From assembly GCA_028287505.1 (NCBI GenBank), contig JAQBPN010000001.1:62001-126000 (forward strand): DNA of 64,000 nucleotides. The letters run 5' to 3'. The notes under the pieces are model-generated. The model had not been told where the DNA came from. It saw only the letters and a list, made by a program, of their open reading frames with translations, and made no database searches. Below are positions 46,932 to 51,296 of this stretch, piece by piece. The position numbers were made by a program, and so were the translations under genes. This DNA is from Fibrobacterota bacterium (GTDB lineage: Bacteria; Fibrobacterota; Fibrobacteria; UBA11236). Each line of letters begins with the position of its first letter. The first letter of the stretch is position 1.

Positions 46932-48431
46932 TTAAAGCCGTTTTTGGGTAATCAGCACCGGCCAACGAACCTCCCTGGGACGTTTTTCTCCCTCTTGGCC
47001 GGCCGGGTCGCCTTTGAGGTAGTCCCCCATCGAAAAAGGACGTCCCAGGGCTTGCCGGCACAGGATGACCATATAGAGGCCGACTTCCCGCCAGCGGGGA
47101 AGCCACGCGGCCAGGAACCGCGGGGAAAGCAGTTTCCATGCCGGCAGCATCTCGCATTCATACAGGTTGAAGAGCGTTATCAGAAGCCGGAAGTATTTCG
47201 CGTCCGCCTTGCTGGATCGGAACAGCACCCGCTTGCTGATGCCCAGATGGATGAACATGTCCTGGGCCATGCACCTCCGGAATACGTAGGCGGAGGTGTA
47301 AATCTGGAGGGGGTTGGCTTCGTCATCCACCCCGGCCACCTCCCGGATCACGCCGCGGTGGATGTCGATCCAGAACCGGCTGGTGCGCTTGCCGGATAAC
47401 ACGCAGGTTACCTGCCTGTCCTTGAAGGCGCGCCGGACCACCCAGGGCAGGACCGCAATGAACCTGCGGAAATAACCTTCGACCTGGGCCAGGCTGGTAT
47501 CGGTCCTGGCTTCCAGGGCGTAGAATTTTTCCAAGACCTGGGATTGTCCCGCGGCGTAGGCCTCCAGGCAGCGATCCCGATCGGTGAAGTGCGGTCCTTT
47601 GGCGATGGCGAAGCCGGTTTGCGACGACCATGCGTCCCCGGAGACCATGGCCTTCACTTCCGGATGCGTCATGTCCCGGGAGCGGCAGTACGCCTCCACT
47701 TGCGGGGGCGTGGTGATGGTGTCGTTGAGGTGGAAGGTTTCCCGGTGCAGATAGCAATGGTTGCTGGCGAACGGGATGGCGTATCTGGCCCCGACCTTGC
47801 GGACGAAATCGGCGAAATCGCGGAGGTAGCGCCGGGAATCCTCGCGCGGCCGCGCGGGCTCATCCATGAAATCGAAGCACATGCGCTCATTGGCGGAACT
47901 GTGGCTGCGGAACACGAAGTCGATGCGGGGATGGCGCGCCAGGATCTGATCCAGAGGGGCGCCCATGAACTTGGCGTCGTTGGCATTGAAGAGGGTCACT
48001 CCGCCGCACTCCACCACGGCGGCGCTGTCCATGAACGGGTAGAATTGGTAAGAACTCAACCGCAGGCCCGGCGCCAGCTCCACGGTTTGCCCATGGCGTA
48101 TCTCGGTTACGTTTTCGAAACCCATTGCCAGGAGATCTTTTTTCATCCGCCTGGCCGGGGACTTCGGAATGAAGATGGGCGTATCCAGGGGGAACTTGCG
48201 CAGCGAAGGCCCATGGAAATGGTCCCAATGGATATGGGTGAGATAGAGAAAATCCGGCCGCAACGACTCGATCAGCTCCCGGGAGACCGGAGGGAAGTTC
48301 CACCATGATCTCCAATAGGAGCTGCCCACCAGCCACGGATCGAAAATCAGGCTCTTCCCCGCCCCTTTGACGAGCAGGCCCGCATGGGACAGGATTTGGA
48401 ACTCGACGGACGGTGCGGATGCGACTCTCAT
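46932..48431 (-). CDS. MBL-fold metallohydrolase (UlaG/CMAH-like)
   Basis: The 499-residue protein starts with a beta-lactamase-fold domain: LVKGAGKSLIFDPWLVGSSY, then the metal motif LTHIHWDHFHG (H-x-H-x-D-H), and later NANDAKFMG and the SHSSANERMCF stretch. A C-terminal extension of over 200 residues has no recognised motif. The N-terminal half resembles UlaG-like lactonases and the MBL domain of CMP-sialate hydroxylase-type proteins; the substrate is unknown. ATG 48431 with GAGG five bases upstream is chosen; 169 extra upstream codons run through a structured leader and are rejected. It may share a transcript with the downstream DUF1080 gene, although palindrome D separates them. Confidence 0.75.
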   Translation of the reverse strand: MRVASAPSVEFQILSHAGLLVKGAGKSLIFDPWLVGSSYWRSWWNFPPVSRELIESLRPDFLYLTHIHWDHFHGPSLRKFPLDTPIFIPKSPARRMKKDLLAMGFENVTEIRHGQTVELAPGLRLSSYQFYPFMDSAAVVECGGVTLFNANDAKFMGAPLDQILARHPRIDFVFRSHSSANERMCFDFMDEPARPREDSRRYLRDFADFVRKVGARYAIPFASNHCYLHRETFHLNDTITTPPQVEAYCRSRDMTHPEVKAMVSGDAWSSQTGFAIAKGPHFTDRDRCLEAYAAGQSQVLEKFYALEARTDTSLAQVEGYFRRFIAVLPWVVRRAFKDRQVTCVLSGKRTSRFWIDIHRGVIREVAGVDDEANPLQIYTSAYVFRRCMAQDMFIHLGISKRVLFRSSKADAKYFRLLITLFNLYECEMLPAWKLLSPRFLAAWLPRWREVGLYMVILCRQALGRPFSMGDYLKGDPAGQEGEKRPREVRWPVLITQKRL

Positions 48432-48460
48432 GGAGGCCTCGATCGGATTCGGATATCGGA

Positions 48461-48528
48461 AAAACCGCCGCGGCCCAATCCGGGCCGCGGCAGTGATGCT
48501 TCCGGAGCGCGGGTCCCGGAACAGCATC
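48461..48528 (-). promoter_or_regulatory. Structured mRNA leader with terminator-like hairpin before the MBL gene
   Basis: On the minus strand two stems occur in order. The first joins GATGC-TG-TTCCGG to CCGGAA-GCATC (48495-48528). The second is a perfect nine-base stem CCGCGGCCC/GGGCCGCGG (48468-48490), followed by CGG and five U residues. The structure ends 30 bases before the start codon of the MBL-fold gene. An intrinsic terminator in a leader suggests attenuation or a ligand-sensing RNA; ending an upstream small RNA is an alternative. Confidence 0.55.
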
Positions 48529-48786
48529 CGGCAGGGATGAAAAGCAAAACGGATACCGGATATTTGCGCGGACCCCGATCGGGAGGCGCTTGGCCTTTTC
48601 CGGGAATTTGGGCCCGTGGACGCCCATTTCGGCCCGGGGAAGCGATCAAATTCTGCCCGCGCGGTCCGGGATTGAGCAATCGGGTTTTTTCCGGGAGTTG
48701 CCTGCAACATCCCCCCGCCACCCCGGACCAATACGTATAGAACGGCAATCACCTTGGTATTTTGATCATCAGCTTGGAGGCTTTTT
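48529..48786. other. Divergent promoter region between MBL and msrAB genes
   Basis: This GC-rich stretch holds an ACGTATAGAAC box near 48732-48742 that may be a rightward -10 element, and the GGAGG ribosome site for the first msrAB gene at 48775-48779. Nothing else is recognisable. Confidence 0.4.
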
Positions 48787-49974
48787 ATGTTTCGCAGTTT
48801 TTCAAAACCCGGTCTGACCTTCGGCGCGGCCTGCCTGGCTTTTGTCGGGCTCATGTGGTTGCGCGCCCCCCACGCGGAGGGATCCGGACAGACGGCCGCT
48901 ATGCAAACGGCGGAGGCCGGCAAAGCCGCGCATGCCACCTTCGCGGGCGGATGCTTCTGGTGTATGGAGCCGCCCTTCGAAAAGGTCCAGGGCGTGTCCG
49001 CGGTGCTTTCCGGATACAGCGGCGGTGATGAAGTGAATCCGACCTATGAGCAGGTGGGAAGCGGCCGCACCGGCCATGCCGAATCCGTGGAAGTCCTTTA
49101 CGATCCGGCCAAGGTCAGCTATGCCACCTTGTTGGAAGTCTATTGGCGTTCCATGAACCCCACCGACGCGGGCGGCCAATTCGCGGATCGCGGCAAGCAA
49201 TATCGTCCCGCCATTTTCACGCGCAATGCGGAACAGAAGCGCTTGGCGGAAGAGTCCAAGGCCAAGCTGGCCGCGAGCGGAAAATTCTCCAAGCCCATCG
49301 TTGTGGAGATCACTCCCTTCAAGGCGTTCTATCCCGCGGAAGAGTATCATCAGGACTATTACAAGAAGGATCCCGGGCATTACCATGCGTACCGCCAGGG
49401 ATCGGGCCGCCAGGGCTTCCTCGAAAAGACCTGGGGCAAGGACTATCCGGAGTATCCCGTCATTCCGGTGACCAAAGACAACGACGGAGTCGAGGAGGCT
49501 ACCAGCATGGGATCGAACCATAAATACGTGAAACCCGCCGACGCGGAACTGAAGCAGAAGCTGACGCCCGAACAATACAGCGTGACCCAGAAAAGCGGCA
49601 CCGAGCGTCCCTTCGCCAATGCCTATTGGGACAACCACAAGGACGGCATCTACGTGGACGTGGTGACGGGCGAGCCTCTTTTCAGCTCCAAGGACAAGTT
49701 CAACAGCGGCACCGGCTGGCCCAGCTTCACGCGGCCCATCGATCAGAACAGCCTGAAGAAGGAATCGGACAACAGCCTCGGAATGCAGCGGGACGAGGTG
49801 CGCAGCCAGATCGGGAATTCCCACCTTGGCCATGTGTTCGATGACGGGCCCGCCCCCACCGGCCTGCGCTATTGCATCAATTCCGCCTCGCTCCGCTTCA
49901 TTCCCAAGGAAAAACTGGCGGAAGAGGGCTACGGCGAATTCGAAAAGTCCTTCCAGGTCGCGTCCAAGCATTGA
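48787..49974 (+). CDS. msrAB: Exported bifunctional methionine sulfoxide reductase MsrA-MsrB, copy 1
   Basis: This 395-residue fusion repairs both stereoisomers of oxidised methionine. A signal anchor ([20 protein letters not shown]) leads to an MsrA domain with [10 protein letters not shown] (catalytic Cys56, Cys59) and an MsrB domain whose catalytic Cys363 lies in RYCINSAS. The MsrB domain lacks the CxxC zinc pairs, and the position equivalent to Cys275 of copy 2 is Ser270, so it may lack a resolving cysteine. The thioredoxin-like third domain of PilB-type MsrAB is absent. GGAGG precedes the ATG. A close paralog follows 64 bp later. Confidence 0.92.
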
Positions 49975-50038: not shown

Positions 50039-51241
50039 ATGTTCCCTTTCACGTTTCCCGCTATGACCAAGCCCGGCTCCGCCGCGGGATTCGCGGTGCT
50101 GGCGCTGACCGGCATCCTCGGCATCGCTTCTCCCCGGGCCGAAGAGATCAAGCCGGCCACCGCCATGCCCAAAACCATCGCCCCGGGCAGGCTGGGGCAT
50201 GCCACCTTCGCCGGCGGCTGTTTCTGGTGCATGGAGTCCCCGTTCTTCAAGATCGCCGGAGTCATCGACGTGTTGCCCGGATACAGCGGCGGCGAAACGG
50301 CCAATCCTTCCTATGAAGACGTGAGCAGCGGAACCACCGGGCATGCCGAGTCCGTCGACATCACTTATGATCCGTCCAAGGCGAGTTACTCCACCTTGCT
50401 GGAGGCCTATTGGCGGTCGCTGGACCCGACCGACGCGGGAGGGCAATTCGCGGACCGGGGAACGCAATACCGCCCCGCCATCTTCTACCGCAACGCCGAG
50501 CAAAAACGCCTGGCGGAGGAAAGCAAGGCCCGCCTGGCCGCGAGCAAGAAGTACCTTAAGCCCATCGTGGTGGAGATTACGGCTTTCAAGGCTTTCTACG
50601 TGGCGGAGGAGGAGCACCGGCATTACGCCAAGCGGAACCCCGTCCGTTACCACGCCTATCGCGCCGGATCCGGCCGCGAAGGCTTTATCGCGAAAAACTA
50701 CGGCATCGACCTTCCGGAAGCGCCCGTCATTCCGGTGAACAGGGACAACGACGGAGTAGAGGAGGCGACCGCCATGGCACCGGAACCGAAATACGTGAAA
50801 CCCGCGGACAACGATTTGAAAATCACCCTGACCTCGGAACAATACAAGGTGACCCAGCAATGCGGCACGGAAAAGCCGTTCGACAATGCCTACTGGGACA
50901 ATCACAAGGAAGGCCTGTACGTGGACGTGGTGACCGGGGAACCGCTCTTCAGCTCCAAGGACAAGTTCAACAGCGGCACCGGCTGGCCCAGCTTCACGCG
51001 GCCCCTCGATCCCGGCCACGTCAAGAAGGCGACGGACGAGAGCCACGGCATGCAGCGCGACGAGGTCCGCAGCAAAATCGGGGATTCCCATCTGGGCCAC
51101 GTCTTCACCGATGGCCCCGCTCCCACCGGCCTGCGCTATTGCATCAACTCCGCCTCGCTGAAATTCATCCCCAAGGAGAACCTGGCAAAAGAAGGCTACG
51201 GCGAATACGCCAAACTCTTCGAAGGCGTGGCCAAGCACTAG
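50039..51241 (+). CDS. msrAB: Exported bifunctional methionine sulfoxide reductase MsrA-MsrB, copy 2
   Basis: The 400-residue paralog of the upstream fusion has its own signal sequence ([20 protein letters not shown]) and the same order: MsrA motif [10 protein letters not shown] (Cys61, Cys64), then MsrB with catalytic Cys368 in RYCINSAS. Unlike copy 1 it has Cys275 in [11 protein letters not shown], a position used as resolving cysteine in some MsrB enzymes. ATG 50039 with GGAG seven bases upstream is the start. Identity with copy 1 is high through both domains, so the pair arose by tandem duplication. A strong terminator follows. Confidence 0.92.
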
Positions 51242-51272: not shown

Positions 51273-51296
51273 ACGGTCCGGAAACGGACCGTTTTT
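51273..51296 (+). terminator. Intrinsic terminator after the msrAB pair
   Basis: ACGGTCCG (51273-51280) and CGGACCGT (51285-51292) form a perfect stem with GAAA loop, followed by a T run (51292-51296). Confidence 0.92.

Follow-up and report, generated by a model that had tools for sequence, protein, structure and literature searches.

A two-hairpin leader with a terminator-like stem before an MBL-fold gene in a Fibrobacterota genome

When a terminator-like hairpin stands before a gene and nothing on the same strand lies upstream of it, the question arises of whose transcript it would end and whether its action is regulated. This arrangement is found in a 64,000-nucleotide stretch of DNA from a Fibrobacterota bacterium (the window, below), in which two hairpins lie back to back on the minus strand ahead of a gene for an MBL-fold protein (46932-48431, minus strand; 499 aa in the ORF listing). 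The ATG at 48431 is also the start chosen for this gene by a coding-score gene caller, and a GAGG at 48437-48440 (minus strand), found 4-6 nt 5' of the ATG in the window and in its relatives G002 and G005 of the same genus, is its probable Shine-Dalgarno sequence. An earlier reading of the DNA, made from the sequence alone, held that no gene precedes the hairpins on their strand and that the neighbouring msrAB is divergent; both points are confirmed, and Pfam (PMSR plus SelR) identifies the neighbour as a fused msrAB gene (48787-49974, plus strand).

Form of the two hairpins

The first hairpin, HP1, occupies 48495-48528 on the minus strand, where the sequence-only reading had placed a long interrupted stem, and folding bears this out: 48528-48523 pair with 48500-48495 and 48520-48515 with 48506-48501, giving 6 + 6 pairs with a 2-nt bulge, and G002 and G005 have a hairpin of similar layout at the corresponding position. 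The second, HP2 (48464-48494, minus strand), emerges both from folding and from a strict stem scan. Its core, GCCGCGGCCC/GGGCCGCGGC, consists of ten perfect pairs around a 5-nt loop, GGAUU, and is extended by U-G, C-G and A-U to 13 pairs (48494-48464; -29.2 kcal/mol). The nine-base perfect GC stem reported earlier is thus to be replaced by ten perfect pairs within 13, while the five U residues said to follow it are indeed present (48460-48464, minus strand), one of them shared with the HP2 stem. The terminator also lies directly before the start codon of the MBL gene as claimed, at a distance of 28 nt between U-run and ATG instead of 30. A stable GC-rich hairpin followed immediately by a U-run is the form of an intrinsic terminator, and HP2 with its five U has that form.

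This combination is non-random, far beyond chance: the 64-kb window has one perfect stem of 9 or more pairs closely followed by 5 or more T, where 40 dinucleotide shuffles average 0.025. Folding of the predicted transcript's first 70 nt gives z = -4.36, a value that none of 300 shuffles equals, and the control 70 nt upstream of the motif described below fold as expected (z 0.27). A longer stretch of 176 nt has z = -2.73 (1 of 200 shuffles as good), and its minimum-energy fold keeps HP2 and pairs the arms of HP1 with other partners. HP1 taken alone is unexceptional (first 40 nt, z -1.17; 40/300 shuffles as good). A generic terminator scan, which returned 9 sites as against 10.5 in shuffles, does not list HP2, presumably because the A-U extension takes one U of the run. 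Both hairpins are confirmed as predicted folds. That they might be coding was considered and rejected: the frame is open upstream to 48938, yet the G002 and G005 proteins, whose starts were chosen by eye for this comparison, align from the ATG at 48431, and conservation upstream of it comes in islands of DNA.

A promoter-like motif and the leaders of close relatives

Among 101 genomes searched (the window's own and 100 relatives), the MBL gene is carried only by the own genome (G000), G002 (73% identity) and G005 (70% identity), which belong to a set of six genomes of the genus, G000-G005. In each of the three carriers a promoter-like motif, GGTATCNNTTTTGCTT, stands upstream of the gene (48542-48557, minus strand, in the window, where it ends 13 nt 5' of HP1). 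It occurs exactly once each in G000, G002 and G005 and is absent from G001, G003 and G004, with no other exact copy in the six genomes; it is identical at 14 fixed positions in the three leaders, and an HP1-like hairpin follows close downstream in each. With up to two mismatches there are 39 sites in the own genome and 25 for the reversed pattern, which is not a clear enrichment, and with three mismatches there are 4 sites in the window, as chance predicts.

The conserved motif, GGTATCCGTTTTGCTT, has the form GG-N10-GC, which resembles the -24/-12 spacing of sigma-54 promoters. GG-N10-GC with TTGCT is the spacing of that promoter class, and the motif shares both elements in 3/3 species, in a genome that has sigma-54. 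Its -24 half is non-consensus, CGGTATC as against TGGCACG, and has CGGTA in place of the TGGCA-type element seen at the clearer sigma-54-like sites of the genome. All six genus genomes encode Sigma54_DBD, and the own genome has 25 matches to Sigma54_activat, 20 of them strong, none of which is tied to the MBL gene. The six genomes contain 17 copies of the full consensus TGGCACG-N4-TTGCW and 4 of a reversed control; upstream of genes in 857 kb of the own genome, TGGCA-N6-TTGC occurs 8 times where shuffles give 0.33 and the opposite strand 2, and the looser GG-N8-TTGCW 23 times where shuffles give 9.2 (largest 14) and the opposite strand 12. This enrichment upstream of genes suggests that sigma-54 promoters are probably in use in the organism, and the MBL motif may be one of them at about even odds. 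Should it be one, transcription would start near 48532 (minus strand), 12 nt past the C of GC and four bases before HP1. A consensus search returned no housekeeping promoter for the MBL gene, and a looser housekeeping-type pattern matched weakly at one site, 219-248 nt 5' of the ATG.

HP2 is less constant than the motif. The sequence-only reading would have been undone by loss of the hairpins in close relatives, and here the outcome is divided: an HP1-like hairpin is kept in 2/2 relatives, HP2 in 1/2 (G002), and a U-run of at least five in 0/2. G002 has both hairpins, with CUUUCC after HP2 instead of the five U, and G005 has the HP1-like hairpin only, without HP2, in a leader of about 61 nt as compared with 101 and 116 nt in the other two. 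HP1 in all three species consists of two stems, the lower of 5-6 and the upper of 4-6 pairs, parted by an internal loop or bulge, its sequence being different in G005. The first 70 nt of the G002 leader are stabler than most shuffles (z -2.93; 2/300 as good), and the G005 leader is no stabler than its shuffles (220/300 as good). Through motif, HP1 and HP2 the window and G002 share 75/103 columns. Covariation, the check proposed earlier for orthologous leaders, was counted in two aligned rows (window and G002) of the three leaders known, and yields one pair exchange on both sides in each hairpin, that in HP2 being an outermost A-U in the window and G-C in G002; 249/500 shuffled controls reach this count, which is thus not above control. 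In the same alignment 4 of the window's 12 HP1 pairs do not form in G002, whose upper stem is shifted. With so few exchanges, and a third of HP1 unpaired in this way, covariation gives no proof. G002 has only CUUUCC behind HP2 and G005 has no HP2, which implies that the leader's capacity for termination has not been conserved: as read from these leader sequences, the terminator is not conserved among relatives, and the motif and first hairpin are kept in both.

A probable terminator within a leader

How the genome uses such structures elsewhere was surveyed in 857 kb (the window plus 793 kb more), with 630 genes called by a simple coding-score script and not a standard gene finder. Strict criteria give 7 terminators, of which 6 sit 23-77 nt past a same-strand gene, and the genome therefore appears to use terminators of this kind. 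HP2 is the sole one of the seven without a same-strand gene upstream, its upstream gene being divergent. Lax criteria (7 pairs, 4 T) give 25 sites: 16 intergenic and past a same-strand gene, 6 intragenic, 2 intergenic and flanked by two opposite-strand genes, and HP2, which alone lies between a divergent gene and a same-strand start. Like the six gene-end terminators, HP2 has a perfect GC-rich stem, a small loop and a U-run, and it scores within their range by a termination score d (50-59, against 16-62 for the six); it differs by its place, before a gene and not after one, and by its U-run of five, the shortest of the strict seven (6-9 in the others). HP2 of G002 with its CUUUCC scores -6 to 9. 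The 3' sequence of HP2 with its T-run does not recur intergenically in the 857 kb, and the idea that the leader is a repeat element was discarded, the own genome having one match (the leader itself) at E up to 0.001.

The explanation that best accommodates these data is that the MBL-fold gene's own mRNA carries these hairpins as a structured 5' leader. Transcription would most likely start at about 48532 from GGTATCNNTTTTGCTT, which would put the 5' end of the RNA at the foot of HP1; in the window species RNA polymerase would then reach HP2 and the five U, where a fraction of the complexes probably stops near 48460 with a short RNA, some 70 nt long, and the remainder would read on into the MBL gene. 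We infer the promoter, its sigma factor, the start site and actual termination at HP2 from sequence. The leader terminator is probably real by its form and active to some degree in the window species. A constitutive or weakly regulated leader terminator, set on a conserved promoter-plus-hairpin leader, is the reading we tentatively adopt, at somewhat less than an even chance; it is favoured because a strict stem with U-run is found once where 0.025 is expected and because the motif is present in 3/3 carriers. The leader is in this sense a plausible local brake on the MBL gene and not a demonstrated new riboswitch. Provided that the terminator works, it offers a compact case of a leader terminator that appears or decays among close relatives as the motif and HP1 stay. 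No long-standing question is settled by this leader.

Several other explanations bear on the same observations. HP1 and HP2 might together serve as a 5' structure that shields the mRNA or governs the access of ribosomes, in which case termination would be negligible and the five U incidental. G002, which keeps the stems without the U-run, and the HP1-like hairpin at the predicted 5' end in both relatives are consistent with such a role, but HP2 with its five U scores like gene-end terminators and lies far beyond chance, and it has been lost from G005 or was never there; we regard this as unlikely, though deserving serious consideration. A more elaborate version of the leader-terminator account, in which the leader is a lineage-specific cis-regulatory element, would have a sigma-54-type, activator-dependent promoter firing into a two-hairpin RNA whose terminator was either gained or, in relatives, lost within the genus, with the MBL gene controlled at both initiation and leader termination, perhaps in step with the divergent msrAB; this is improbable.

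The sequence-only reading had gone further, taking the layout as that of an attenuator or riboswitch. The layout itself stands, as the only such case among the 7 strict terminators in 857 kb, and the step to a regulated switch is weak, there being no conserved antiterminator. That transcripts can end prematurely within 5' leaders is well established in other bacteria, an example being the 3' ends mapped in E. coli 5' UTRs (PMC7815308). As in leader attenuators, HP2 lies between a promoter-like element (an inferred one) and a same-strand start codon, with no same-strand gene upstream; the MBL leader differs from them in that no conserved antiterminator, leader peptide or effector was found for it and in that its terminator is not kept in relatives. 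Neither a conserved, mutually exclusive antiterminator nor a terminator kept in orthologous leaders is thus in evidence. Regulated attenuation, or a riboswitch, would involve a shift of HP1 and HP2 to an antiterminator form, driven by a ligand, a protein or a leader peptide. Besides the layout, what speaks for this is a predicted alternative fold of the nascent window RNA at 57 nt, in which the loop and 3' side of HP1 pair with the 5' arm of HP2 (-21.6 kcal/mol), about as stable as HP1 before the 3' arm of HP2 has been made. The nascent RNA of G002 folds with no such competitor, which counts against a conserved antiterminator. An ATG inside HP1 shares the reading frame of the MBL gene in the window but not in G002, and G005 lacks it (by eye); hence no conserved leader peptide starts from it.

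Searches for a known class point the same way, and agree with the earlier statement that no riboswitch class was recognised. At gathering score Rfam finds only a tRNA in the window and nothing in the leader; the leader region alone gives 7 weak matches (E up to 1), each bearing an sRNA label and far below gathering, the best being ar7 (28.7 of 60 bits, E 0.00033 in a 221-base search). A known riboswitch or sRNA class is accordingly rejected for the leader. A covariance model built from the window and G002 leaders and searched over the six genus genomes returned 14 matches with E up to 1: the two training sequences at 125.3 and 104.1 bits, the opposite strand of the same locus at 27.5, an intergenic terminator of G003 at 25.7, the orthologous leader of G005 at 22.5, which is not above background, and nine others from 22.2 bits down. 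No clear second copy of the leader was found in the six genomes by this search. The G003 terminator, rejected as a leader copy, has a stem sequence very like that of HP2, a similarity judged to be coincidence, followed by eight T; it lies at L186 1501-1612, between what appear by eye to be the genes for glyceraldehyde-3-phosphate dehydrogenase and phosphoglycerate kinase. The likeness of the MBL leader to Rfam riboswitches is one of position only, with no match at gathering score and a single locus in the genus by model search. Regulated attenuation is on these grounds decidedly improbable, and a metabolite-sensing riboswitch is unsupported, with no positive evidence beyond the layout. By title, no literature retrieved for Fibrobacter and riboswitch treats the subject of the MBL leader; PMC2864571, on 104 candidate structured RNAs, names Fibrobacter once. 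One phrase search on intrinsic terminators in Fibrobacterota brought up no paper, which says little about novelty, and among the matches listed for sigma 54 with attenuation none contains 'sigma 54'.

Two further explanations separate the terminator from the MBL transcript. Positions 48532-48460 might encode a small RNA in its own right, terminator included, with the MBL gene under another promoter; a promoter-like motif, two hairpins and a terminator do make up a complete short unit. Against this, the motif tracks the MBL gene in 3/3 species and does not occur in the three genus members that lack the gene, the terminator is not kept in relatives, and a consensus search gave no promoter in the stretch from 48460 to 48431, which offers just 28 nt, all of which makes a separate small RNA very improbable. 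HP2 might instead insulate the MBL gene from stray backward transcription from the msrAB promoter, so that the gene hears only its own promoter. The divergent msrAB adjoins the MBL gene in all three species (window, G002 and G005), which speaks for such an insulator, but the conserved motif lies upstream of HP2, so the MBL gene's own transcript would stop there too, and HP2 is not conserved; we give insulation very little weight indeed. The leader-terminator reading remains the one that we prefer.

The MBL-fold family and neighbouring elements

The conserved motif is a better entry than the hairpins into the regulation of this widespread, uncharacterised MBL-fold family. The window protein scores under cut-off with Pfam Lactamase_B_2/B_3 and has no match in an NCBIfam search; it carries the HxHxDH metal motif (THIHWDH, read from the sequence), and the profile of its residues 8-129 resembles the solved non-heme diiron monooxygenase 8a90 (E 0.00019). 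Beyond G002 and G005 its relatives are 28-59% identical over the matched stretch, some of them partial, and by record title come from several phyla; the family has members in Prochlorococcus. At least 59 related loci are present in genome_contigs, two from Fibrobacteria and 57 others. None of the 57 has msrAB nearby or the motif GGTATCNNTTTTGCTT (flanks of up to 4 kb, less on short contigs), both features being restricted, among these at least 59 loci, to the two from Fibrobacteria. Viral contigs searched for further MBL orthologues gave none.

On the msrAB side, a second island of conservation (48643-48723, minus strand) appears in the alignment of window and G002, with 64/90 columns identical in three 30-column blocks starting at 48723, and may be an operator region of either gene; the stretch between it and the promoter-like motif aligns poorly. 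Two short inverted repeats lie within it in the window, GTTGC-AG-GCAAC and GATTG-CT-CAATC, and G002 keeps them partly. The fused msrAB is itself the first of two such genes in tandem (48787-49974 and 50039-51241, plus strand), the second judged by eye from its similar sequence, and a terminator-like hairpin lies 3' of the second at 51273-51292.

The survey of the own genome also brought to light a dispersed, mostly intergenic element made of exact head-to-tail copies of GCCCGAC with a period of 7, often with T-rich DNA before it and GAAA after it. Arrays of at least 2 copies number 27 in the 857 kb, 23 of them intergenic by the script's gene calls and 9 with four copies; they may be sites bound by a regulator, or members of a repeat family. 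None lies in the window, and examples are found at L159-L163 and L169-L172 (contigs C39 and C117) and also on C112, C101, C99, C65 and C35.
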